The position numbers and the translations under genes are program-made. Of a DNA stretch of 64,000 bases, positions 14,353 to 27,586 are shown piece by piece. The first letter of the stretch is position 1. Each line of letters begins with the position of its first letter. Below the pieces are notes generated by a model, which did not search any database, was not told the DNA's origin, and saw nothing but the letters and a program-made list of their open reading frames with translations. This DNA comes from Crassaminicella profunda (lineage in GTDB: Bacteria; Bacillota; Clostridia; Peptostreptococcales; Thermotaleaceae). The stretch lies in the NCBI RefSeq assembly GCF_019884785.1, contig NZ_CP082326.1, forward strand, positions 3,403,355 through 3,467,354, written 5' to 3'.

Positions 14353-14384
14353 CATACAATAATTTTATTTTTCAAATATACAAC

Positions 14385-15767
14385 TTACAATAACTTTTCA
14401 TATAAATAGATACACTTATTCTTCTCCCCATAATCTAAAACCTCTTTTGTAAAACCACTTTTAGAGAAAAAAGCATAATATTTTTCTTTATAGGGTAGTA
14501 TTTGAGCCTTTTCTATAAGAGCCATGACTACCTTCATATCTAAGGGTTCATTTCTCCATTTACATTCCCCAATAAACGCACATTCCTTACTAACTGCCAA
14601 AATATCTATTTCTTCTTGACGTCTTTTTATAGGATTATTCCCCCACCATGAACCAATTTTTTCAAAAACAAAAGGTAACTCATACTTTTTATTTTGTCTG
14701 ATCAAATAATCTATACAAATCTTTTCAAATATATATCCTAAATAATGATTCATCTCAGGCTTTATTTTCTTTTCATAAAGATAATCAATCATTTCCTGTT
14801 CAATCAGTGATGGATAGTCAAAGACAAATCGATACCAAAAATTAAATAAATTATCTTTTAATCGATAAATGGTCTTTCTTGAGCTTTCCTTTTCTCCAAC
14901 AGGCACTTGTTTTTCTACAATCTGTAATTCTATTAAAGTTTTTAAATAAGCTGAACATTTACTCCCTGCCTCTCCTACCTTCGTTGCAATTTCATTTAAT
15001 TTAGACGCACCTGTTGCAATGGCCTCAATAATAGAATTATACATAGCAGGTTCCCTTAGTTCTTGCTTTAAAAGATTCATAGGCTCTGTATACAAATAAC
15101 TGGATTTATCTAATATCTGCCTTTTTATATTCTCTTCAATAGAGTCTTTATCTCTAAATTTCAATAGATATTGAGGAATCCCCCCTAAAACACCATAGGC
15201 TTTTACTTGTTCTTCAAAGCTATAATTTTGAAAAAACTTTATACTATCAAAAAAATCAAAAGGCTCTATTTTTAATTGTGCTGTTCTTCTTCCATACAAA
15301 GGACTTCTATAAGATAAAATCTCCTTTTCCATAAAACTCATAGATGAACCACATACCACCAAATACAATTTTGTGTTCTTTAAATCATGATCAATCAAAT
15401 TCTGAAGCAAAGATGGTATACTCTTATTGGCTAAAGCCACATAAGGAAATTCATCCATTACTAAAACAATTTTTCTATCAAGACTTTGCTTTGCCAAAAA
15501 TAAGAACGCCTTCTCCCAAGATTCAAAGCTTGATATAAAGTCCTCCATTTGAAAATGCTCTAAAATCTTTTGAGAAAATTTTTCTAACGCCATCTTTTCA
15601 TTGTATTCTTCCGCTACATAGAAAATAGATTCTTTGTCTTTGCAAAACTCTGTCAATAATCTGGTTTTTCCTACTCTTCTTCTTCCATATATAACAACAA
15701 ATTGAAATTGGTCTTCTGTATATAAACGATTTAATGTATTTAACTCATAATCTCTACCGATAAACAT
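14385..15767 (-). CDS. AAA ATPase of the ATPase_2/DUF234 family
   Basis: A 460-residue STAND-like ATPase. The N terminus has the typical FIGRDYELNTLNRLY opening and Walker A YGRRRVGKTRLL at about 29-40; Walker B-like LVMDEFPY is at about 102-109. A winged-helix region sits mid-protein. The C-terminal DUF234 part carries EIDILAV...FIGECKW, the acidic-Lys pattern of a PD-(D/E)XK nuclease-like fold. Such proteins are common in archaea and clostridia; their role is not established, though some sit near defence or toxin-like loci. It lies directly downstream of the putative anti-phage operon but has its own leader and terminator. A 48-bp perfect palindrome abuts its ribosome-binding site. Confidence 0.82.
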   Translation of the reverse strand: MFIGRDYELNTLNRLYTEDQFQFVVIYGRRRVGKTRLLTEFCKDKESIFYVAEEYNEKMALEKFSQKILEHFQMEDFISSFESWEKAFLFLAKQSLDRKIVLVMDEFPYVALANKSIPSLLQNLIDHDLKNTKLYLVVCGSSMSFMEKEILSYRSPLYGRRTAQLKIEPFDFFDSIKFFQNYSFEEQVKAYGVLGGIPQYLLKFRDKDSIEENIKRQILDKSSYLYTEPMNLLKQELREPAMYNSIIEAIATGASKLNEIATKVGEAGSKCSAYLKTLIELQIVEKQVPVGEKESSRKTIYRLKDNLFNFWYRFVFDYPSLIEQEMIDYLYEKKIKPEMNHYLGYIFEKICIDYLIRQNKKYELPFVFEKIGSWWGNNPIKRRQEEIDILAVSKECAFIGECKWRNEPLDMKVVMALIEKAQILPYKEKYYAFFSKSGFTKEVLDYGEKNKCIYLYEKLL

Positions 15768-15782
15768 TTGTAATCTCCTTTT

Positions 15783-15830
15783 ATATAATTAAGATTAAGT
15801 AAATCTAGATTTACTTAATCTTAATTATAT
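15783..15830. repeat. 48-bp perfect palindrome upstream of the DUF234 ATPase
   Basis: Two 24-nt arms are perfect inverted copies with no loop, centred on AAATCTAGATTT at 15806/15807. It ends next to the AAAAGGAG ribosome-binding site of the ATPase gene. It could be an operator, a strong leader hairpin that occludes the ribosome-binding site, or a cleavage site. Confidence 0.9.
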
Positions 15831-15880
15831 TATATCCAAAATATCGAATAAAACAACTTATTTACAATAACATACCTCTC

Positions 15881-15913
15881 AAAAACAAAAGTATAGCTCT
15901 ACACTATACTTTT
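15881..15913 (-). terminator. Terminator of the RADAR-like operon
   Basis: AAAAGTATAG (15887-15896) pairs with CTATACTTTT (15904-15913) around a 7-nt loop. It overlaps the last codons of the deaminase gene, and a U-rich tract follows on the minus strand. Confidence 0.75.
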
Positions 15914-18778
15914 ATCTGTTGCCTTTCTTAATTCTCTTATAATCAGATCTAATTCTATTAACACTTGCTGAACACTTTTAGAATCTTCTCTTATAAAACT
16001 CGAATTCATTCCGTGTTCTCTTATTTTATCAATCCATTGTAATACTTTTTCTTTAGAATACCCCTTCTCCACTAAGGAATAAAATATATATGCAAATTCA
16101 TTACTAAGATTCGTATTAAACACAGAAGGGTCATCTGTATTGATACTGATCATCAGAGAATCTATATTACCACTATTTTCAATACTGTTTAATTTTGTTA
16201 TATAGTGATTAAAAATATTCTCAATCTCACCTATAGCTGTATTAGAGGTTGGATTGGTTTCTACGATGATTCCTTTATTACTGGTTTTCTTTAATACTAA
16301 TTTTTGCATTTCCTGTATAATACTTAATTTTTCTTTCGGCACTTCCACTTGAATAGGCTCTACCATTTTTTCTAGATATTTTTTGCAATAATAAGCTCCA
16401 ATAAGTTTTTCTTTATCCCATGCTCTATTTTCCCCTTCTATGCAAGGACAACAAATCATCTCTTCTAGTGAATATGCTTCACAAGCTACTTTATCTTCTC
16501 TTATTTTAAAGTGCCTATTTGATGTATCAAATTTCTTAAATTTACATTCATAAGCTTCCCATAGATTGTAAATAGTAATCCCTTCAGTATTCACATATAT
16601 TTCCTTCGCATAATCCATGATTTTTCTTTCTAAATAGCCCATATCAATACTTGAATTGTTATATTTACAGCTTCCCCAAATCCAAATTAAATTTTCCAAA
16701 TACTCCATACGAGGCATGGTTACTACTGGATGCTTCTCCCTCCAACACTTAATATTTATCCCTAGAGCAATTCCATGTCCAATTCGATCTCCAGCATGAT
16801 ATTTATAACGATCAATAGTCTCATCTATTCTTCTAAGCCCTGTTAATATATGTCTAAAATCTTCTCCTGCATGAAAGGTAAAGCCTAATGTTTTTAAAGG
16901 CTTCATTCCTTCTCCATACATTGAATGTAAGCTATCTCGAAGTTCATCATAAACTTGTGAAAATACCCAAGGATCAGCATAATTTTCTATACTCGCCCCA
17001 TCAATGCCTACAATATATTCTGATATCTTAGGGATTTCTTTTCTGATTTTCAAAATAGCCTCCGCTTGTAATTCATACTCATATTTCTGTTTTTCATAAT
17101 ATAGATGTTCTCTTTCCTTTTCTCTTTCATAATCAACCCAACACTTTTTATTGATTGGTAAATCTGGCTTTTTAATAAAATGATAGATGATTCCTAGTTG
17201 AGGAATTGGTAATATTGTTTTTGCATTATATTGATTAAGATAAAACAACCAATTGTAATGATCCGAAAGACTCGGAAATGATCCCTCTAAAAAATCACAT
17301 TCGCTTTCTCTTTTCAAGATTTTTTTATAAGCTTCAAAGATTAATAATAGTTCTTCACACATTTCTCTTTTTATATTTTCACATCTTCTAAATTGATTCT
17401 TTTTTCCTTCCTCAAAAACATCTGCTGGAGAAATACGAATTTCTAGCTTTTTTAAATTTTTATCTTTAAATTGAGCATTCAATCGTTCTTCCCAGCATAT
17501 ATTTTTATCTGAATATCTTCCATTTTTTGTAGATTGTTGAAAATATCCCTCAAAATTATTTAGTCCTTTGATTTCATTTCCTTGAACCATAAAAGAGAAA
17601 AATTCATTCTTTACTCTTAAATAATTCATAAAACAATTGCTAAAATCTTTGTCACACTCATTTTTATCAATATATTTAACAGCTTTCATTAGAAATATAT
17701 TTTCTGTATAGGTTCCAATTTCACTTTTAAAATCACTCTCTTCATCAAACATCATATAGTTTAGTATATCCATTGGATCATTCTGAAGTTTATTTATATC
17801 CTCTTCTTTTGACCCTGTACTTACGTTAAAAACATCTTCAAACAATAGTATAAAAATATTTTTTAATTCTTCTTCTTCAAATTTTTCATATCTTTCATAG
17901 TCTACTTCTTTTTCTTGACCCTCACTTAATAGTTCCGTTATGAATGTATTTAACAGGGGCTTTTCATAAAAAATACTATTTTTCTTATCTGTATCACTTC
18001 TTAGATAAGGAATTAACTCAACAAAACAACGAAAACAGCAATCTAAATGTTTATATTTCACAAGAAAACAAGCCATGATCATTCTCAAAATACTTGCAAC
18101 TTTAAAATATTTTCCTAATGTATATTTCTTACTTCCAATTACCTCATGGTATCGTAAAGCCTTCGGTTCATCGTTATAAAGATTCATCAAGTTTTTCCAA
18201 GAAGTATAAAAATCTGTAGATGCAGATACATGCAAATGTGTTTCCGCAGTTCCTTTCTTTAAAATGCTTTCTAGTTGCATATCTTCAAGAGCTACTCTTG
18301 AATAGTACCCTTCTAAATATTCCTCCTGCTTCTTATCATTATCAAGTAAGTATAATACCCCTAGTATATCTGTAGTAAAATACCTATTTAAACTATTCCA
18401 TAATAATACCTTGCTAATACCCTTATACACCTTAAAATATTTATTATTTTCTGTTTCCCAATATTTAAAAACTAATCTACCATCTCTATGTGCAATAAAT
18501 GTACGAGAAAATTTTTTCAATAACTCTAAACAATAAATATCTACATTATAATCATATTCTTCTACTTTTCTTTTAGGGTAAAACAATTCCCAAAACATAT
18601 TGATTTCGTCTAAATTGTCAATGGTCATATATTTATTGAGTACAGGATATATGGCTCTTTTTTGATTCGCTCCTTTCTTCTCTAAAGGATTATTTTCAAA
18701 GTATTCTATCTGTGTCATAGGTAATAAGGCAGTCTTAATCATCAAATCCATATTTTTGATATTTACTGAATAGCTCAT
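15899..18778 (-). CDS. rdrB: RdrB-like divergent adenosine deaminase (RADAR)
   Basis: A 959-residue protein with every zinc and catalytic motif of adenosine deaminases: HLH at 181-183, HAGED at 636-640 (His636 metal, Glu639 proton shuttle), RIGHG with His668, NPTSN at 842-846 and TDDP at 881-884. The motifs are spread by a roughly 450-residue insertion between HLH and HAGED and another of about 170 residues before NPTSN. This matches RdrB of RADAR rather than a 340-residue housekeeping deaminase. RADAR RdrB is reported to form a large shell and deaminate adenosine nucleotides (ATP/dATP to ITP/dITP; RNA editing was first proposed). It starts 15 bp after rdrA with AGGTGA, and a terminator overlaps its end. 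Confidence 0.87.
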   Translation of the reverse strand: MSYSVNIKNMDLMIKTALLPMTQIEYFENNPLEKKGANQKRAIYPVLNKYMTIDNLDEINMFWELFYPKRKVEEYDYNVDIYCLELLKKFSRTFIAHRDGRLVFKYWETENNKYFKVYKGISKVLLWNSLNRYFTTDILGVLYLLDNDKKQEEYLEGYYSRVALEDMQLESILKKGTAETHLHVSASTDFYTSWKNLMNLYNDEPKALRYHEVIGSKKYTLGKYFKVASILRMIMACFLVKYKHLDCCFRCFVELIPYLRSDTDKKNSIFYEKPLLNTFITELLSEGQEKEVDYERYEKFEEEELKNIFILLFEDVFNVSTGSKEEDINKLQNDPMDILNYMMFDEESDFKSEIGTYTENIFLMKAVKYIDKNECDKDFSNCFMNYLRVKNEFFSFMVQGNEIKGLNNFEGYFQQSTKNGRYSDKNICWEERLNAQFKDKNLKKLEIRISPADVFEEGKKNQFRRCENIKREMCEELLLIFEAYKKILKRESECDFLEGSFPSLSDHYNWLFYLNQYNAKTILPIPQLGIIYHFIKKPDLPINKKCWVDYEREKEREHLYYEKQKYEYELQAEAILKIRKEIPKISEYIVGIDGASIENYADPWVFSQVYDELRDSLHSMYGEGMKPLKTLGFTFHAGEDFRHILTGLRRIDETIDRYKYHAGDRIGHGIALGINIKCWREKHPVVTMPRMEYLENLIWIWGSCKYNNSSIDMGYLERKIMDYAKEIYVNTEGITIYNLWEAYECKFKKFDTSNRHFKIREDKVACEAYSLEEMICCPCIEGENRAWDKEKLIGAYYCKKYLEKMVEPIQVEVPKEKLSIIQEMQKLVLKKTSNKGIIVETNPTSNTAIGEIENIFNHYITKLNSIENSGNIDSLMISINTDDPSVFNTNLSNEFAYIFYSLVEKGYSKEKVLQWIDKIREHGMNSSFIREDSKSVQQVLIELDLIIRELRKATDKSIV

Positions 18779-18793
18779 CTTATCACCTAACCT

Positions 18794-21700
18794 TTAATCT
18801 AATAATTTGAATGCTGTATTATATAAATCTTTATTGTAATCATCAAGTTTTTTCAATAATTCCTTATAGAATTCCTCTTTTTCTTCATAAACTTCTTTAG
18901 GTGTAGTTTCTTTCTTAATAATCGCATATAAAAGTGCGTATATTCTAAAGTGCATTTTTTCTTTTGTAGTTAATGGTTCTATTGGAATATCTTTTTTTAT
19001 TTTTCTAAGTTCATAAGCTATTTCTTTAATATATGCTTCTTCTTTCTCTAACACCCTTCTAAATCTTACATCTTCTTCATTCATGTATTCTGGTATTCCA
19101 TGCATTAGATAAAAATCTATACTTCCCATAAAATCCATAAAATCCTTCACATATATTAACTTTTCCTTTATCGCATCCCCTGACCCAAAGTTATATATTT
19201 TTTCATTTTTAAGTTTTTCTAACTTTCCTTTTAAATCATCCGCTATTAGAATAAATTTATTATTCTTTAATTCATCATCTTTATATTTTAAAGCTCTTCG
19301 AATTCTTCTTACATGGTCTTCTTTTAAATCAATTTCTTGCATCTTATTCTTTTTTAACACAGAAATTATTTGATATAAAAAATAATATGCATCTACAGAA
19401 TTACAATCATAACTTACTTTTTCCTCATCTTCATTGATAATTCTATCTTTTAAATCTATCACATCTCTTCCTAAATATCGATAGATCATTTCTAATTCTT
19501 CTTTTTTATCCTTTCCCTTTTCCATAATTCTATCTTGTAATTCATTCATAATATTATAGTTTTTCAGATTTTCATTATATTCCTCTGCTTCTTGAATAAG
19601 AATTTGTTCTAGAATCCAAAATAAATCTCTAATCATTATTTTATTTTCTTTTACTAAATAATCCGTTCTTTGATTTAATTCGTCAATACAACCATTTTCT
19701 ACATATGCTTTAATGTTATAAAAAAAGTTTAATGTGTTCATTTTTCTATCTTCTATCAAAAAGTTCTTAATGTAATCATATACATTATATTCTGATGAAT
19801 CTCCCCATTCCTCTTTAAAATAATTAGCCACACCACTCATCATATTCATCTTATCTATATGATGTCTTACTGATTTTTGTAAATTTTTTAAAAATACATC
19901 TAGTTTTTTCATTTCTTCATTTTCAAAATCCGCTTTTCTTATTACTTTATTTAACTTTTCATTTTTATCCATATTATTATCTCTAGCTACAATCTTTTCA
20001 AACTCTTTTAATCGTTCTTCTTGCTTTTGTTTGTTTTCGAATATTATCTTAAATTGCTCTCTATTTTCTATTCCTAATTTTTCTATATCCTCTACTCTTT
20101 TATGCATTTCTTCTATCATTTCTATTACATATTGTTTATGCTTTTCTTTACGCAAAAACTCTTTTTTTTCTATTTGTTCTCTAATTGCAAAATATCCATT
20201 AAACCAACCTAGATTTCTAGCTTCTATTCTTGTTCGTTTCCCTTTTCTTTTCCATTCTGCTCTTTTCTTTTGCCATTCTTCTTCTTCCAACTTCTCTATT
20301 TTCTTTAATGATGCTTTTACATTGTTCCAATCATTTTTTGTTTCTTTAAAAAATTGTCTGTTTTGTTCTACAATTTCTTCTTTTTCTATGAAAAGATATG
20401 AATGTAATATTTCATCTAATTCATCTTCAACATCTAACGCTAATAGTTCAGAACCTATTTCGCATATTTCTTTTATTTCGCTTAACCACATTTCTTCTTC
20501 AATTTTTTTCATTTTAATATATTTAAGAATTTCTTCTGCTTTTCCTTTTTCTATTTTAATTGTTTCTTTAGTAATCCATCGCTCTTCTAAAGATACTTCA
20601 ATTAAAGTTTTTCCTATCGCAAGAATATTTTCTTTTTTACGTTCAGTTCTTACAGGATAATTCAATGCTACAGAAAAAACGTACAACATTTCAAAAGGGT
20701 TTTCCATTTTACTTATTATATTTCTGTAAATACTCTTTTCATTTAGTAACTGTTTATTTAAAAAATCTCTAATTTCTCCAACTTCATCATTATCTCGTGT
20801 TGTATTGAAAATTTTCTTATAATCTTCTTTATTAAGGGCACAACAAATCCCATCAAATAACATTCCTAAACTCAGAACATCTAGTTTTCGTCGTTTTTTA
20901 ATAATTTTTTTCCCTTCTATTTCTCCTTGAAAAATATCTACATACCTTACATCTATATATATTTTCTTGTCTTCTGCTGGGTCTTTTTTTATTTTAATAA
21001 CCGATTTGATATTTTCTTTATATATATTTAATTCAGATGAAGAATCAATAATAATATCTAAAAACCGATTTAATTCTTCTGCTGTCCATATTTTATGAAT
21101 ATCATCTGTTTTCTCAATTTTTTTACTCATAGAATTTAGATAATAATAAACATTCATTAATCCCCTTGGCTTGTTGTCAAAGCATTTGAACAAAGTAGGA
21201 ATTACAAAGTTTTTATCTTTTCCATGAATGCTTTCATACATTAAAAAGTTAGTTTCTTCTAGTTTGAATGTTTCTTTTAATAATTCAAATAAAGATTTAT
21301 ACTCTGTGTTTTCTTGCGAACTGTATTTAAAATTAACTTTTTCTTCATCTGTTATTTTTTTCAAGTTGTATCTTAATGCAGGAGATAATACTTTTTTCAA
21401 ATAATCATAAGCAAGCTCTTTTCGGATTTCTAGTGCTGTTTTACTCTCTTTCACACTATCTGTAGTAAAACTCTTTTCTATTAACTTTGCATCTAGTATT
21501 TTATCGTTATACAAATAATTAATGATAATAGTTTCTTCAAAGGTAATATAATTCCCAGAAACAAATATGACAATATTAGAATGAGATAAAAATCTAATAA
21601 TGGTTTCTAATACATTCAGACATTTCCTTGTACTAATATCCACATCATCAAAAAATATATAAATAAGTGCATCCTCATTTCCACAATTTTTTCTTGTATG

Positions 21701-22438
21701 TCTTTGGTATTCTACATATTCATCTATAAATTCTTTGAAACATTTTGCTAGTTCTATATCCTTTGATAATGTATCAGAACTTAAATCTACATAGTCTCTC
21801 TTAGAACCTACATCACTCAATGATTTTTTATATTCTTCTTTTCTCAAAAAGTATGCTTTCTCTACTTTTTTGAATGCCTCTCCTACATAATTAATTTTAT
21901 CTGCCCTTGGAAATGCTCTATCTGTTCCGCACAACGGACAATTTCTACTACTGCTTTTATAATTAAATATACTTTTATCTTCTTGAAAATCTTCTTGTAC
22001 TTTTTTAACGATCTCTGCAAAGAATCCAATAATCCAGCCTAAAGAATCACTTTCTTCATCCATGTCTTGTGGTACGATAATAGGTAAAACGGTATCATAC
22101 TTTCTAATATTTTTTCTCTTTTCTCCTTTTATGCCTTCCATAATTTTATTCTTTATGGTTAATAATACAGAAGTTTTTCCACTTCCTCGCTCTCCTAAAA
22201 TAGAAAATACATTATTATGATGCTTTACAAATTCAGGCTCTTCTTTTACTATCTCTGCAAATTTTTTATGTTTATCATCAGTTCCTTCTAATCTCTCTCT
22301 CAGCAATTTTGCATTATCTCTTATTTCTTTTATTTGATCATAGATATTTTCATGATTAGGTAATAATATATTCATACTATCTTTAGGTAATATTCTTGAT
22401 CCTATTTTGATAGTATTATCATAATTTTCTGTAGTCAC
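18794..22438 (-). CDS. rdrA: RdrA-like P-loop ATPase (RADAR)
   Basis: A 1214-residue soluble ATPase. Walker A is GERGSGKT at 82-89, Walker B IYIFFDDVDIS with Asp264/265/267, and a sensor-like IFVSGNY follows at about 291-297. A CPLC pair (Cys167, Cys170) lies in the insertion between them. Residues about 690-880 are strongly charged and predicted by eye to be long coiled coil. In RADAR, RdrA is the ring-forming ATPase that works with RdrB. This copy seems longer than the roughly 900-residue RdrA proteins I recall. The start is GTG: its G is shared with the TAG stop of the upstream gene (TAGTG), with GGAG 13 nt before. Identification rests on the P-loop fold plus adjacency to rdrB. Confidence 0.78.
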   Translation of the reverse strand: MTTENYDNTIKIGSRILPKDSMNILLPNHENIYDQIKEIRDNAKLLRERLEGTDDKHKKFAEIVKEEPEFVKHHNNVFSILGERGSGKTSVLLTIKNKIMEGIKGEKRKNIRKYDTVLPIIVPQDMDEESDSLGWIIGFFAEIVKKVQEDFQEDKSIFNYKSSSRNCPLCGTDRAFPRADKINYVGEAFKKVEKAYFLRKEEYKKSLSDVGSKRDYVDLSSDTLSKDIELAKCFKEFIDEYVEYQRHTRKNCGNEDALIYIFFDDVDISTRKCLNVLETIIRFLSHSNIVIFVSGNYITFEETIIINYLYNDKILDAKLIEKSFTTDSVKESKTALEIRKELAYDYLKKVLSPALRYNLKKITDEEKVNFKYSSQENTEYKSLFELLKETFKLEETNFLMYESIHGKDKNFVIPTLFKCFDNKPRGLMNVYYYLNSMSKKIEKTDDIHKIWTAEELNRFLDIIIDSSSELNIYKENIKSVIKIKKDPAEDKKIYIDVRYVDIFQGEIEGKKIIKKRRKLDVLSLGMLFDGICCALNKEDYKKIFNTTRDNDEVGEIRDFLNKQLLNEKSIYRNIISKMENPFEMLYVFSVALNYPVRTERKKENILAIGKTLIEVSLEERWITKETIKIEKGKAEEILKYIKMKKIEEEMWLSEIKEICEIGSELLALDVEDELDEILHSYLFIEKEEIVEQNRQFFKETKNDWNNVKASLKKIEKLEEEEWQKKRAEWKRKGKRTRIEARNLGWFNGYFAIREQIEKKEFLRKEKHKQYVIEMIEEMHKRVEDIEKLGIENREQFKIIFENKQKQEERLKEFEKIVARDNNMDKNEKLNKVIRKADFENEEMKKLDVFLKNLQKSVRHHIDKMNMMSGVANYFKEEWGDSSEYNVYDYIKNFLIEDRKMNTLNFFYNIKAYVENGCIDELNQRTDYLVKENKIMIRDLFWILEQILIQEAEEYNENLKNYNIMNELQDRIMEKGKDKKEELEMIYRYLGRDVIDLKDRIINEDEEKVSYDCNSVDAYYFLYQIISVLKKNKMQEIDLKEDHVRRIRRALKYKDDELKNNKFILIADDLKGKLEKLKNEKIYNFGSGDAIKEKLIYVKDFMDFMGSIDFYLMHGIPEYMNEEDVRFRRVLEKEEAYIKEIAYELRKIKKDIPIEPLTTKEKMHFRIYALLYAIIKKETTPKEVYEEKEEFYKELLKKLDDYNKDLYNTAFKLLD

Positions 22439-24156
22439 TACTTCTCACTCTCCTCTTCTGTATTCTCTGATTTTTCTTCCTTTGCATCAGCTTTTTCTAC
22501 TTTTTTCTCACTATTTTGCCCTCTTGCCATTACCAACTCATACAAGAAATTGTCTAATGCCTTTCCTTGATTTGGATGTTTTCCATATATGATCTTCATA
22601 CCTCTTTCTTGTAAGATTTTTTCTTGCACAGGATCTGGTGTTGTTGTAAATACAAAGAAATTTCTTTCCTTTTTATCAACATGATTTTCTTCTATTTCAT
22701 TAGAAGGATTTTGTCCCATTTTATATAGAAAATATCTAATATTCATATCACTTAGACTATATCCTAAGAAAACAAAAATTTTATTCGCCTTTATATCATC
22801 TGCTAATTCTTTATACAAATTTTTCTCTTTTTGGGCTTCTTCATCTTTATCTTCTTCATCTTTTTTATTTACTTTTTTATTTGCTTTTTCGATTTCTTTG
22901 AAAGCTTCAAAATAACTTGTTTCCGTTAAAACTATCTTCTTATCAAATTCAGCTTCATCAATCTTTTCACCTTTTTTACCTATTATCTCTCTTATATCTC
23001 CGTGTATTTTTATAATTCTAACTTCCTTTTTGCTAAGACAATTTCTTTCTCCTTGTAAACCTTTTACAAGACATTCTTTCATCTCCGTTTCCATATCTGT
23101 ATGAATTTCAAAAGCTTTTTCTAATGTTTCTTCATAATTAGTGGTGTAAATTTTTTCTGGTGATAATGCTACAATACTTTTATATATAGATGACTGATAG
23201 ACGTCTCTTGCAATATCTCGTTCACCTAATTCTTCACCTTCTATTGAAAAATTATTTTTAAACTCTTCTAGCAACTTTTCTTTATCTTCTTTCATTGCAA
23301 ATTCTGCAAGGGCTAGATAATCATCAGATAATGAAAAAAAGACTTCTTCATCATAGCCTAATTTTTTGCCTATATTTTGTAGTAACCCTCTCCATGTAGG
23401 CATCTTCAAATTATTCGGCACACCTGCTCCTATAAATAATATAAGTTTTATCTCATCAGATTGTTTTTTATTAGCGTCTTCTTTGTTAAATTGTTTTTTC
23501 TTTATTGCTTCTTTTAGTTTATCTTTGTTCGTATCAGATCGTTCATAGAAAACAATCTCATTCTTTTTTAAATACTCTCGTAATTTATTAATGGCTTTTC
23601 TTCTCATGGATATTTTATTTTTTTCTTCTTCCATCATTTCCCCATACGTTTTTTTACAAGGGTTATCTTTCCTTGGAATAAAAATAGCATCCCATCCAAA
23701 TCCATGATTTCCCCTAGGGCATCTAGAAATTTCACCCTCTGCAATTCCTTCAAATGTAATTATTTTCTTTCCATCACAATATCCAATAATCGTTCTTGCC
23801 GTTGCGCATCTATATTCGGTGTTTATCATTTTTTCACAGATGGCTTCATTTGACATTTTCTTTAAAAATTCTTTTGTGATATGTGATGGCAATCCTCCAA
23901 AATAAGGAATTTGTAACATTGTATGTTCAACAATAATGGGCATTTTGATTTTTTTAAAGGCATTTAATGTTTTCTTTTTTACAAATTCGTTTATATTATC
24001 CATTTCTTGAACTTCTTCTAGATTTAATAACTCTCCTACTCGCTCAATCCTATATAATTCACTTACTTCCTTCATTATATCTTGCATTTCTTTCTCTTTT
24101 CGTTTATTGGAAGTTACAAATGCAATAACTTGTTCTTGTCTTTTTTTAGAGTTCAT
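22438..24156 (-). CDS. HAM1/ITPase-like and SIR2 NADase fusion, putative inosine-nucleotide sensor-effector
   Basis: Numbering is from the first in-frame ATG (24171), but the true start is probably Met6 (24156): GGAGG lies 8 nt before it and overlaps the earlier ATG. Residues 14-202 align with ITP pyrophosphatases: FVTSNKRK (18-25), VEHT (81-84), FGGLP (91-95), PRGNHGFGWD (152-161), EKNKISMR (183-190). The catalytic Asp of the VEDT motif in human ITPA is His83 here, and the SHR base-recognition motif is SMR, so catalysis is probably lost. Residues about 240-550 form a SIR2 domain with FIGAG (246-250), TTNYE (Asn345), KIHGD (His390) and FLGYSLSD (468-475), all intact for NAD+ cleavage. It is first in the operon and overlaps rdrA by one base. 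It resembles KomB and KomC of Kongming fused into one chain. Confidence 0.85.
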   Translation of the reverse strand: MNSKKRQEQVIAFVTSNKRKEKEMQDIMKEVSELYRIERVGELLNLEEVQEMDNINEFVKKKTLNAFKKIKMPIIVEHTMLQIPYFGGLPSHITKEFLKKMSNEAICEKMINTEYRCATARTIIGYCDGKKIITFEGIAEGEISRCPRGNHGFGWDAIFIPRKDNPCKKTYGEMMEEEKNKISMRRKAINKLREYLKKNEIVFYERSDTNKDKLKEAIKKKQFNKEDANKKQSDEIKLILFIGAGVPNNLKMPTWRGLLQNIGKKLGYDEEVFFSLSDDYLALAEFAMKEDKEKLLEEFKNNFSIEGEELGERDIARDVYQSSIYKSIVALSPEKIYTTNYEETLEKAFEIHTDMETEMKECLVKGLQGERNCLSKKEVRIIKIHGDIREIIGKKGEKIDEAEFDKKIVLTETSYFEAFKEIEKANKKVNKKDEEDKDEEAQKEKNLYKELADDIKANKIFVFLGYSLSDMNIRYFLYKMGQNPSNEIEENHVDKKERNFFVFTTTPDPVQEKILQERGMKIIYGKHPNQGKALDNFLYELVMARGQNSEKKVEKADAKEEKSENTEEESEK

Positions 24157-24592
24157 TTTTGGTTCCTCCATTTACTTATTTACTACCGTATAACGCTCTA
24201 TTTGTAGCTATCCTATTTTTCAAACAAGGATTCTTATTTTTACACTATACTTCATGATTAGTAATAAAATATCAATTTATAGTTAAATTTTCCAACACCA
24301 TTTATAATTCTACATTTCTCTTAAATCTACCTTTGTCGAACTTTCACTTGTTTTGTTGAATTTACTAAAACAATCTCATCCTTTTTTAAACAAATAAACT
24401 AACAATCACTATTAAAACCCTATTTCGAAAGAATACAAAACTACTCTACATTGAACAATTCCAAAATTCTAAATTCTCCAACCATTAAAAACCAATACCA
24501 ATTGACATGTCTACTTATATGAGATACTATATTACTCATAGGACAATGTTATATTTTTACATATATCTTAAAAATTACAAGGGGGTAGATTT
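24157..24592. other. Divergent intergenic region between the defence operon and the reductase gene
   Basis: This 436-bp AT-rich gap separates the divergent HAM1-SIR2/rdrA/rdrB operon from the + strand reductase. The reductase promoter is clear (24502-24530). I could not find a convincing promoter for the defence operon: TTGATA and TATAGT occur on the minus strand near 24246-24274 but are 20 bp apart, so no call is made. No small ORF stands out. Confidence 0.5.
24502..24530 (+). promoter_or_regulatory. Promoter of the flavin reductase gene
   Basis: A consensus TTGACA (24502-24507), 17-bp spacer and TACTAT (24525-24530). ATGAG...CTCAT half-sites at 24519-24539 flank the -10 box and could be an operator. 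Confidence 0.72.
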
Positions 24593-25933
24593 ATGCAAAA
24601 AGTAGATTTATTGATTATTGGTGGAAGTGCAGGGGGCATCCTTAGTGCTACTACTGCAAGAAAAGTATATGGGGATATTGATATTACCGTTATACGTGAT
24701 AAAGAAACCGTAATGGTTCCTTGTGGTATTCCCTATATCTATGGCACCCTAAAGGATACATCAAAAAATATTATCCCTGATAAAGTGTTGACAAGTAATG
24801 ATATCAACTTATTAGTAGACAAAGTTACTAAAATCAATAAACAAGAAAAATTTGTAGTAACGGAAAAAAATGAAAATATCTATTATGACAAATTGATTAT
24901 TGCAACAGGTTCTCTTCCGATCATTCCATCCTTTCCTGGAAAAGAACTAGAGAATATATTCCCTGTATATAAAGATGAAGTTTATTTGAAGAGTCTCCTA
25001 GCAAAAATGAGCGATTTTCAAGATATCGTAGTCATCGGTGGCGGATTTATCGGTGTAGAATTTGCTGAGCAAATGAAGAAATCTGGAAAAAACATTACAT
25101 TGGTTCAAAGAGGCGATAAATGCTTGAGAAGAAATTTTGATGCTGAATTTAGTGATGAAGCAGAAAAACTTTTAATTGAAAATGGTATCAATGTAAAAAC
25201 AAATACACAAATAGAAGAATTTATTGGAGAAAAGTGCGTAAAAGAAATTAAACTTTCAAATGGAGAAACCATAAAAGCAGATGCAGTATTACTTGGAGCT
25301 GGTGTAAAAGCAAATTCTATTCTTGCACAGGATGCAGGTATTGAAGTAAATGATGATGAAGCTATTGTTGTCAATGAATACATGAGAACCTCAGACCCAG
25401 ATGTATTAGCAGTTGGCGATTGTGCTCAAAAGACATGCTTTTTCACTAGAAATAGCGTTCCAATCTTATTAGCATCTACTGCTGCTGTTGAAGCAAAAAT
25501 CGCAGGATATAATGTTTTTAAAAACAAATTGACTCGTAAAAATAAAGGAACGATCAACGCATTCTCAACAAAAATCTATGGTAGAGCATTTGGTGCAGTT
25601 GGTTTAACTGAAAAACAAGCTATTGCTGAAAACTTTGATATTGTTGTAGGTGAATTTTCTACAATGGATCATCATCCTGGTTCCCTTCCTAATACACAGA
25701 CCATTAAAATGAAATTGATTTTCTCAAAATATTCAGGTGTGATTATGGGGGGACAAATTTCTGGTGGAGATTCTATTGGTGAAATGATCAATATATTGAG
25801 TCTTGCAATCCAACAAGGAATGAGTGCTGCAGATTTGAATACCCTTCAAGTTGCTACTCATCCTCTTCTTACAGCATCTCCAATTGCTTATCCTATTAAT
25901 GGAGCAGCTATGAATGTCATTGAAAAAATGTAG
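24593..25933 (+). CDS. FAD-dependent NAD(P)H:disulfide oxidoreductase (CoA-disulfide reductase/NADH oxidase family)
   Basis: A 446-residue flavoprotein of the single-cysteine disulfide reductase family. FAD-binding GGSAGG is at 10-15, the redox cysteine is Cys44 in VPCGIPY, the NAD(P)-binding GGGFIG is at 149-154, and the second FAD contact is AVGDCAQ at about 275. A dimerisation domain fills the C-terminal third. Relatives reduce O2, polysulfide or CoA disulfide and protect anaerobes from oxidative stress; the actual substrate is not evident. It has its own promoter, the Shine-Dalgarno AAGGGGG and a terminator, so it is monocistronic and is one of the few + strand genes. Confidence 0.88.
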   Translation: MQKVDLLIIGGSAGGILSATTARKVYGDIDITVIRDKETVMVPCGIPYIYGTLKDTSKNIIPDKVLTSNDINLLVDKVTKINKQEKFVVTEKNENIYYDKLIIATGSLPIIPSFPGKELENIFPVYKDEVYLKSLLAKMSDFQDIVVIGGGFIGVEFAEQMKKSGKNITLVQRGDKCLRRNFDAEFSDEAEKLLIENGINVKTNTQIEEFIGEKCVKEIKLSNGETIKADAVLLGAGVKANSILAQDAGIEVNDDEAIVVNEYMRTSDPDVLAVGDCAQKTCFFTRNSVPILLASTAAVEAKIAGYNVFKNKLTRKNKGTINAFSTKIYGRAFGAVGLTEKQAIAENFDIVVGEFSTMDHHPGSLPNTQTIKMKLIFSKYSGVIMGGQISGGDSIGEMINILSLAIQQGMSAADLNTLQVATHPLLTASPIAYPINGAAMNVIEKM

Positions 25934-25967
25934 TTAATCCCTTATTCTATAAAAACATATATAAAGA

Positions 25968-26006
25968 AATCCTGTAACTCATTTATAAGTTACAGGATTT
26001 TTTTAT
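25968..26006. terminator. Terminator between convergent genes
   Basis: AATCCTGTAACT pairs with AGTTACAGGATT (25968-26000), followed by a U-run on the + strand. The hairpin may also end the convergent YitT-family gene. Confidence 0.88.
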
Positions 26007-26060
26007 ATACAAATACTTATAATCATTTTTGTAACTAAACAACTGAACTGACAGGCACAA

Positions 26061-26915
26061 CTATAAAGCAGGTTTCTTAAATCCTTTTCCATGAACTTCT
26101 GATGTATCTAATATAGAAATAAATGCTTGAGGATCTGTATCTTCAATTAATTTTTGTATTTTAGGCAATTGCCTTAAGGTTACTATACAATAAATAACAT
26201 TTCTTTCGTTCCCTGTATAAGCTCCCTGCCCATGAAGAAAAGTAACCCCTCTTCCTACTTCTTTTATAATATGATCTGCAATCATTCTTTCCTTTTGCGT
26301 TACAACAAATAATAATTTTTTTCTTTCTATTCCGTCCATTACTCTATTCATTACTTGTGATGTAATATACATAGAAATCAATGTATAAAGTGCAATACTT
26401 AATCCGTTAATAGTTGTTCCAATCAGTACAACTACTATGTTCATGGCAAACAAATAAGTGGCTATGGTTCCTCCAGTTTTTTTCTTAAGGATCACAGCAA
26501 TAATATCTGTTCCTCCCATAGAAGCTCTATTTTGAAAAACGATGGCTCCACCAATGCCGCCTAATATTCCTCCATATATACTAGATACAATCATATCGTC
26601 TATTGAATAGTAATGGGATATATTTTGAGTTAAAATCATAAATAAAGATAAAGACAGCATACCAATTAAACTAAAAATACAAAAATCTTTATCCACTTGC
26701 TTCATTCCTATTAAAAATATAGGTATATTCACAGCTAATATATAATAACCCGACTGAATATTGGTTAGATACTGTAAAATTAGAGCAATGCCCCCTACTC
26801 CTCCACTTAAAAACTTATGCGGTATTATAAAGGTATTAATACCTATGGATGTGATTGCACTTCCTAACATAATCAACAATATTCTTTTTGCTAATTCTTT
26901 TTTGTTATATTTCAT
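26061..26915 (-). CDS. YitT-family membrane protein (DUF161/DUF2179)
   Basis: A 284-residue integral membrane protein. About five hydrophobic helices lie between residues 10 and 190, including the family opening LLIMLGSAITSIGINTF and LSGGVGGIALIL. They are followed by a roughly 80-residue cytoplasmic DUF2179 domain (KLLFVVTQKERMIADHII, then GVTFLHGQGAYTG). Such proteins are widespread in Firmicutes in several paralogues; their function is not established, though nucleotide or ligand sensing by the C-terminal domain has been proposed. GGGAGTGGG precedes the ATG. It appears monocistronic. Confidence 0.88.
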   Translation of the reverse strand: MKYNKKELAKRILLIMLGSAITSIGINTFIIPHKFLSGGVGGIALILQYLTNIQSGYYILAVNIPIFLIGMKQVDKDFCIFSLIGMLSLSLFMILTQNISHYYSIDDMIVSSIYGGILGGIGGAIVFQNRASMGGTDIIAVILKKKTGGTIATYLFAMNIVVVLIGTTINGLSIALYTLISMYITSQVMNRVMDGIERKKLLFVVTQKERMIADHIIKEVGRGVTFLHGQGAYTGNERNVIYCIVTLRQLPKIQKLIEDTDPQAFISILDTSEVHGKGFKKPAL

Positions 26916-27040
26916 AAAAATCCCACTCCCTTCTTTCTATTTTTAAGCACCAACGAATTATATCAGTATTTAATGTATATTTCAATTCAGATTTCGTTAA
27001 TTTTTTTTAAATTTTTCCAGGAGTTTCATTCCATATATTT

Positions 27041-27586
27041 TTATATATCTAATATACTTCTATCTACCTCTACTATTTTTAAAAACAACTCTGCCGTAGC
27101 TTTTGCATCCCAAGATGCCCTATGATAATTTTTAAGTACTATACCATAATACTGACAAGCTGTATCTAATTTATTATTTATACCAGCATAAAGTCCTTGC
27201 TTTTTTAGTTTATTTAATGCCTTTAATGTACATATATGTCGATTGATTAGAGGTAACCCTAATTTTTTAAAATAATGATTCAAAAAAGGTACATCAAATT
27301 TTGCATTATGACAAACAACAATACTATCTCCTATATATTTTCTAACTCTTGGTAATACTTCTTCAAGCTCAGGTTGATCCTTTGTCATTTCTTTTGTTAT
27401 ACCATGTGCCTTGAATGCAAAAGGATCCATTTCCCCATGAAAACGAATTAATGAGCCTCTTCTTTTTGAAATTTTCCCATCACTAATTTGCACGGCTCCA
27501 ACCTCTATAATTTCAGCACCGTTTTTATAGCTTAATCCTGTTGTTTCTATATCTACCACTGTATATTTTCGATCCCTTTTATACAT
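27041..27586 (-). CDS. DEDDh 3'-5' exonuclease (DnaQ/PolC-type)
   Basis: A compact 181-residue exonuclease domain with all catalytic residues: Asp12 and Glu14 in VDIETTG, Asp98 in HNAKFD, His155 and Asp160 in HRASWDA. The single-domain size matches stand-alone DNA polymerase III epsilon-like nucleases of clostridia, distinct from the domain embedded in PolC. It probably degrades single-stranded DNA or RNA ends in repair or turnover. AAGGTG lies 8 nt before the ATG. No clear terminator follows it before the YitT gene. Confidence 0.9.
   Translation of the reverse strand: MYKRDRKYTVVDIETTGLSYKNGAEIIEVGAVQISDGKISKRRGSLIRFHGEMDPFAFKAHGITKEMTKDQPELEEVLPRVRKYIGDSIVVCHNAKFDVPFLNHYFKKLGLPLINRHICTLKALNKLKKQGLYAGINNKLDTACQYYGIVLKNYHRASWDAKATAELFLKIVEVDRSILDI

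Follow-up and report, generated by a model that had tools for sequence, protein, structure and literature searches.

The locus described here touches two known immune systems, RADAR and Kongming. RADAR subtypes in print comprise the rdrAB pair, a Csx27-associated rdrABC form and a SLATT-associated rdrABCD form (PMC7699616). On infection, RADAR is reported to convert ATP and dATP to ITP and dITP, with RdrA enhancing the activity of RdrB; in E. coli carrying RADAR and infected with T4, dITP reportedly stood at over 15 times the level of dATP by 15 min, and the E. coli RdrB is described as accepting triphosphates and not AMP or monophosphates (PMC9994260). That same structural study leaves open the step that leads from (d)ITP accumulation to abortive infection (PMC9994260). 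In Kongming, KomA is reported to turn dAMP into dITP together with two kinases, one from the phage and one from the host, and dITP bound to KomB to activate the NADase KomC (PMC12948488, PMC12774641). Here we describe an operon of Crassaminicella profunda in which an rdrAB pair directly follows a gene for a HAM1-SIR2 fusion.

The operon lies in a window of 64,000 nucleotides (the window being, throughout, the whole stretch of DNA analysed), which corresponds to positions 3403355-3467354 of a single-contig 4.59-Mb genome. It occupies window positions 15899-24156 on the minus strand in the order fusion, rdrA, rdrB, and all three open reading frames were confirmed. The first gene (22438..24156, minus strand) encodes the HAM1-SIR2 fusion, a single-chain KomB-KomC-like protein of 572 aa when read from an ATG behind a GGAGG, or of 577 aa when read from an alternative upstream ATG at 24171. 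Its TAG stop codon (22440-22438) overlaps by one base, as TAGTG, the GTG start at 22438 of the second gene (18794..22438, minus strand), which encodes an RdrA-like AAA+ ATPase of 1214 aa. Exactly 15 bp (18779-18793) separate the latter from the third gene (15899..18778, minus strand), which encodes an RdrB-like deaminase of 959 aa; this succession of rdrA and rdrB on one strand is the gene order of RADAR. A non-coding stretch at 24157..24473 of the minus strand forms the 5' part of the extra unit delimited below; a promoter is expected there, and none was singled out. At the 3' end, a terminator-like feature predicted from sequence and folding (15881..15913, minus strand) overlaps the RdrB stop codon, the last stop of the operon, and consists of an A+T-rich hairpin (15913-15887) followed by GTTTTT. 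Folding of 15860-15925 on the minus strand gave -16.2 kcal/mol (z -3.4), a value equalled by 1 of 200 shuffles. A generic terminator scan, which returned 2 sites in total against a shuffle mean of 1.5, did not report the hairpin at the RdrB stop, probably because its stem holds too few G-C pairs. Composition is uninformative, the GC content being 27.5% here against 31.2% for the remainder. The arrangement of the trio is not due to chance, since it recurs in three other genomes. A preliminary description made from the sequence alone had placed the genes on the minus strand in this order with the TAGTG overlap and the 15-bp gap, all exact by coordinates, and had closed the operon with a terminator, in keeping with the hairpin and T-run found here.

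The borders of the unit emerge from comparison with the same-genus genome G008 (Marinisporobacter sp. McD1.33). Window segment 15864..24473 is missing from the same chromosomal site of that genome (L110); the two window stretches on either side of it, 14377-15863 and 24474-27480, run up to one and the same L110 position, 3027, with borders good to about ten bases. The unit comprises the three genes, the 5' region and the terminator-like hairpin, and nothing else of note. The operon's neighbours in the window, an ATPase_2 gene and a gene for a 446-aa oxidoreductase (94% identical), are directly adjacent in G008, where the dehydrogenase gene beyond the ATPase is also present (89%) and an extra 567-aa gene, which the window lacks, lies between ATPase and dehydrogenase. 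The ATPase_2/DUF234 protein encoded at window 14385-15767, which PADLOC lists as a candidate (PDC-S27), adjoins the unit and is not part of it, since its gene is present at the same G008 site without the unit. G008 carries its own version of the trio at another place, with an RdrB that is 40% identical. Repeats at the borders amount to one 6-base direct match, with no inverted match of at least 6 bases, and we therefore claim no mechanism of insertion; segment 15864-24473 was either gained in the window or lost in G008.

The deaminase is recognisable as RdrB in each comparison made. It matches A_deaminase in Pfam (2.6e-8), RdrB in NCBIfam (1.5e-50) and 8fnw among PDB sequences (E 7e-26), and an hhalign comparison of 21 relatives with five canonical RdrB sequences gave 100% (E 4e-69) over 717 aligned columns. 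Residues H181, H183, H636, H668 and E639 are invariant in the 21-row alignment (A4, as A3 below, holding some and not all relatives) and are spaced like H152, H154, H498, H530 and E501 of E. coli RdrB, so that the zinc His tetrad and the catalytic Glu are both in place. The ATPase matches NCBIfam RdrA at 2.4e-9, and its single sequence gave zero PDB matches at E 1. A profile of 24 relatives (A3, 24 rows) nevertheless placed 8hr7/8fnt first among PDB sequences (E 1.4e-7), and hhalign against five canonical RdrA sequences gave 99.1% (E 1.5e-18) over the ATPase part only. Its Walker A motif GERGSGKT (K88), Walker B motif FFDDVD (D264, D265 and D267), K349 and R356 correspond to invariant residues of canonical RdrA, as in an AAA+ ATPase of the RADAR type. 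The PDB sequence file labels 8fnw as 'Adenosine deaminase' and 'Archaeal ATPase', and 8hr7 likewise without the RADAR name; we take 8fnw, 8fnt and 8hr7 to be RADAR structures. Both proteins score far under the NCBIfam equivalog cut-offs (NF041743, NF041744), with 36.2 of 600 bits for RdrA and 172.6 of 800 bits for RdrB, although such a cut-off singles out close relatives and does not define function; Aliivibrio RADAR, which supplies one member of each canonical set, passes both. Given these scores, the window RdrA and RdrB are, on sequence grounds, a divergent RADAR branch, and their distance from characterised RADAR means that their substrates could differ.

The fusion carries Ham1p_like (1.5e-39, residues 16-200) and SIR2_2 (9e-17, residues 340-528) Pfam domains within one chain, and in 577-aa numbering the HAM1 part extends over about 16-200 and the SIR2 part over about 241-548. 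Among PDB sequences, KomB (8zsg, 6e-32) ranks first for the HAM1 part, above ITPases from archaea and human, and KomC (8zsf, 6e-22) scores highest for the SIR2 part; 9v0g, a second HAM1 plus SIR2 entry, matches the fusion more weakly. The fusion of a Clostridia MAG (L030) behaves likewise, with 1.6e-52 to KomC and 3e-37 to KomB. In the komABC loci L071 and L069, komB lies directly upstream of komC with overlapping ends, which is the order of the two halves here, and the fusion thus resembles a KomB chain continued by KomC. Judged purely by homology, the HAM1 half corresponds to the HAM1-like dITP sensor KomB (8zsg match and KomB-like substitutions), and the SIR2 half to the SIR2 NADase KomC (8zsf match, with the His and the Asn kept). 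The preliminary description had called the three proteins a KomBC-like HAM1-SIR2 fusion, an RdrA-like ATPase and an RdrB-like deaminase, and each name survives these comparisons.

Residues within the HAM1 half bear on its function. At the position of the DD pair of stand-alone HAM1 proteins the fusion has E82-H83 (577-aa numbering). In the alignment, the second residue of the pair is Asp in 11/11 stand-alone HAM1 proteins, His in 4/4 fusions, and His in 6/7 and Gln in 1/7 KomB-like proteins (fusions and KomB-like proteins pooled, His 10/11 and Gln 1/11). The pair as a whole reads EH in all four fusions and in four of the seven KomB-like proteins, the remaining three having DQ, DH and DH; the archaeal ITPase 1b78 has ED. 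Similarly, the His of the SHR motif is Met in 4/4 fusions and in 5/7 KomB-like proteins (Ala in two), and at this position stand-alone HAM1 proteins have His in 10/11, Ala in 1/11 and Met in 0/11. By protein, L071, L069, L012 and L085 combine EH with SMR, L077 combines DQ with SMR, and L078 and L079 combine DH with SAR. The fusion keeps the motif Lys, the FxWD Asp and the SMR Arg. In RdgB, the Asp that stands second in the DD pair (Asp69 of the E. coli enzyme) presumably carries out catalysis. With His in its place, as in KomB-like proteins, the HAM1 half looks like a sensor, and we infer that as an enzyme it is probably hydrolysis-dead. On these residues we rejected a housekeeping ITPase for this half; the genome's other HAM1 gene (L002) has DD and SHR. 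In the SIR2 half, N345 and H390 (577-aa numbering) are retained, and H390 aligns with KomC H146, which is mutated in 9xvc. A Thoeris or DSR identity for this half was rejected, the best SIR2 match being KomC.

We consider it likely, and hold this with good confidence, that the trio is one anti-phage system in which RADAR makes a signal and a fused KomB-KomC receives it. Under this proposal, RdrA would register infection and license RdrB, which would deaminate ATP and dATP to ITP and dITP; the KomB-like and probably hydrolysis-dead HAM1 domain would bind the inosine triphosphate (dITP and/or ITP); and, once occupied, it would switch on the SIR2 domain of the same chain, whose hydrolysis of NAD+ would stop the cell. 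The proposal draws on what was observed here, namely gene order, protein families, residues, recurrence, unit borders and the absence of a KomA match in 3/4 fusion genomes; by analogy, the three proteins would act like their published homologues and their parts would be coupled, with an inosine nucleotide activating the NADase of the fusion. With somewhat less assurance, we also think it probable that RADAR serves in these bacteria as a second-messenger synthase and not as a poisoner of the nucleotide pool, its (d)ITP being read by a one-chain HAM1-SIR2 receptor-NADase.

The operon holds no KomA gene, and a search with Vibrio KomA at E 0.001 gave no match in three of the four fusion genomes (the window's own genome G000, G008 and G1129); this search is not very sensitive, as RdrB itself went unreported. 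In the fourth (G198, Peptostreptococcaceae McD6.36) it returned one separate adenosine-deaminase-like gene, whose 3.9-kb locus has no KomB or KomC match. Since KomA is without a match in 3/4 fusion genomes, RdrB is the evident source of inosine nucleotides. KomB-KomC pairs also occur at L012, L077, L078 and L079, where the stretch fetched gave neither a KomA nor an RdrB match, and HAM1-SIR2 proteins may therefore read other signals as well; L077-L079, which have DQ or DH for DD, form a separate branch. KomC-like SIR2 proteins were likewise seen at L072, L073, L074, L075 and L076, with no KomA, KomB or RdrB match within the stretch fetched.

How often the fusion accompanies RADAR was assessed in several samples. 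A scan of GTDB genomes with an RdrB alignment yielded 23 loci; adding the results of plasmid, viral and genome searches brought the distinct rdrB loci examined to 32, not counting the window. This count omits L001 and L002 (HAM1 loci of the window's own genome) as well as 13 rdrB match loci (L003-L007, L015-L022) that lie inside larger counted loci or in the window itself; L013/L028 and L023/L040 are the same places, each counted once, and L045, with two rdrAB pairs, was also counted once. The fusion lies beside rdrAB at 4/33 distinct rdrB loci (the window and 3/32) and was not found at the other 29/33, several loci being truncated where their contig stops. At seven distant loci (L009-L011, L047-L050), searching with the window RdrA as a single sequence gave no match. 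In G008 the fusion is upstream of rdrAB with a 6-bp gap, on contig 61 of G198 it is also upstream, and in the Clostridia MAG (L030) it is downstream of rdrB with a 19-bp gap; the trio thus has two gene orders, with the fusion upstream in 3/4 loci and downstream in 1/4. At the G008 locus (L013:10616-14023), the RdrA region consists of two open reading frames (590 and 525 aa) separated by 57 bases, and a match to the window RdrA was obtained for the first (590 aa) only; this is either a natural split or decay. With the fusion at 4/33 rdrB loci, RADAR does not need it, and we class it as an accessory type outside the RADAR core.

In samples drawn from the order, rdrB occurs in 6/393 genomes and fusion-profile matches occur in 6/386, of which three span both halves in one frame, and all three of these full-length fusions adjoin rdrAB. 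A hypergeometric P of 2e-6 for this association mixes the draw of 6 rdrB in 393 with that of 3 fusions in 386 and ignores relatedness, and is a rough guide. No fusion besides the window's was found in the class (371) or phylum (398) genome samples, which overlap, and no further rdrB in the phylum sample (1/398 genomes); in all these large samples, those of the order included, scoring covered the top 2 or 3 candidates of each genome, so that a fusion or an rdrB could be missed. The preliminary description had held that absence of the fusion from related rdrAB loci would refute it; on that point the outcome is divided, with the fusion present at four loci and not found at 29.

Phylogenies add to this picture. 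A 30-row RdrB tree puts the four RdrBs that accompany a fusion at three places and requires three changes of state, three of them forced by well-supported branches, and the fusion label is no more clustered than in shuffles (84/500 as low). The three places could reflect repeated pairing, or one gain followed by losses. A KomB-KomC tree of 10 rows, which weighs one origin of the fusion against two, recovers a single origin in 58% of bootstrap trees.

Scanning viral contigs with P0003 and P0001 as single sequences gave nothing. Alignment scans turned up two loci in which komA, komB and komC are separate genes, one distant RdrB with no HAM1 or SIR2 match nearby, and 11 KomC-like loci, of which L085 (its HAM1) and the two komABC loci were examined. 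Phage records gave 8 matches, each covering about a third of the query and mainly its HAM1 part. Among the plasmid records listed (15 of 138 in one search and 40 of 309 in another), KomB and KomC are annotated as distinct genes wherever the two halves both matched.

Other rdrAB loci have neighbours of their own. On contig 54 of G198 (L115:1289-15805 and L023:809-12465), a type III-D CRISPR-Cas operon encoding Cas10, Cas5/Cas7 proteins, a NARF-domain Cas7, a 1381-aa protein with no PADLOC match and a 1424-aa Cas7-like protein is followed, after a one-base gap, by rdrA-rdrB; no direct repeats of at least 24 bases within 200 bases were found in L115 or L023:12400-19901. Here RADAR appears to form part of a type III operon, and the genome also has fusion-type RADAR at another place. 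On Rhizobium leguminosarum plasmid pRLN3 (L010:5150-13169), rdrAB is followed after a 0.9-kb gap by a 542-aa open reading frame that contains an adenylosuccinate-synthetase domain; enzymes of this type use IMP. In another genome of the same genus as the window (G006, L014:7650-17933), rdrAB without the fusion precedes genes for a radical-SAM/SPASM protein and a 929-aa protein that we label, from reading its sequence, SNF2-type helicase-like. A Csx27-like neighbour occurs at L034, and DUF4231 or SLATT neighbours at L041 and L009, the last under Pfam's cut-off.

Alternative accounts of the trio were weighed against a shared signal. HAM1 family members hydrolyse (d)ITP, and NCBIfam names agree; the HAM1 half might thus be an active (d)ITP pyrophosphohydrolase that curbs leaky RADAR product while no infection is under way, with the SIR2 half as a separate or backup killer. 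Such a brake would be consistent with the toxicity reported for RdrB overexpressed without phage in E. coli (PMC9994260) and with the retained motif Lys, FxWD Asp and SMR Arg. However, the second Asp found in all 11 stand-alone HAM1 proteins has become His in all four fusions, as in six of seven KomB-like proteins, KomB is itself a reported dITP sensor (PMC12948488, PMC12774641), and the SIR2 half would be superfluous in a brake; we regard this account as quite improbable.

Independence of the two parts is another possibility, in which two defences share a promoter, RADAR poisoning the nucleotide pool and the fusion answering a different trigger. The 29/33 rdrB loci without a fusion, and the KomB-KomC-like pairs that occur with no deaminase match nearby, point that way. 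The one-base overlap of fusion and rdrA argues against it, as do an extra unit made up of the trio alone, the three order-sample fusions adjoining rdrAB (with none but the window's in the overlapping samples of 371 and 398 genomes) and the fact that the product of RADAR is the reported ligand of KomB-KomC, and we think independence improbable. Very unlikely, in our estimate, is an account in which the fusion docks on the RdrA-RdrB assembly and responds to protein contact, or to some nucleotide that is not an inosine triphosphate (IMP, XTP or a product of RdrA): RADAR is reported to form giant assemblies, and the 1214 aa of the window RdrA, compared with a published average of about 900 aa (PMC9994260), would leave room for extra contacts, but the HAM1 pocket is a nucleotide pocket bearing KomB's substitutions. 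We therefore retain the reading of the trio as RADAR coupled to a KomB-KomC receiver through (d)ITP.

If that reading is true, several consequences follow. The operon offers a testable answer to the question of abortive infection for at least one RADAR branch and recasts the product of RADAR as a signal. KomB-KomC would be a portable readout of deaminated purine nucleotides that different deaminases can drive, and the trio would be an instance of recombination between the signal makers and signal readers of different immune systems; the single-chain form is, in addition, suited to structural work. In openly licensed literature, which omits most subscription papers, we found no description of a combination of RADAR with HAM1-SIR2, in agreement with the preliminary description, which knew of none.

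Set beside the known systems, the operon has the adjacent rdrA and rdrB genes, the ATPase motifs and the RdrB His tetrad and Glu of RADAR, alignable over 717 columns of RdrB and the ATPase part of RdrA; it departs from RADAR in that its branch is divergent and its third gene encodes a KomB-KomC-like fusion and not a membrane protein. The fusion adds a further accessory type to RADAR, the first found here that might read RADAR's product. Cad1, a CARF-adenosine deaminase of type III CRISPR, resembles the trio in converting ATP to ITP as an immune step (PMC11645235). Unlike the trio, it has a sensor domain of the cyclic-oligoadenylate type. To our knowledge, no RdrA or NADase partner of Cad1 has been described. 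Thoeris ThsA (SIR2-SLOG) likewise fuses a SIR2 NADase to a nucleotide-sensing domain, and PADLOC's ThsA matches the window SIR2 half at 1.6e-13; its sensor, however, is reported to be a SLOG domain for cyclic ADP-ribose isomers (PMC11204291), whereas the fusion has HAM1. With Kongming the operon shares KomB and KomC homologues in the same order, the His for Asp and SMR substitutions and a SIR2 His equivalent to KomC H146, but KomB and KomC form one chain, KomA is absent, and the deaminase is an RdrB with an AAA+ partner. Without KomA the trio is not filed as Kongming, although it would work like Kongming's back half. The reported action of E. coli RdrB on triphosphates, compared with a KomA route that starts from dAMP, implies that the trio would not need a phage kinase; if the reading holds, it would bypass that step and the phage tricks that starve it. 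The comparison as a whole suggests that the trio joins two known kinds of system, RADAR and a Kongming-type KomB-KomC.
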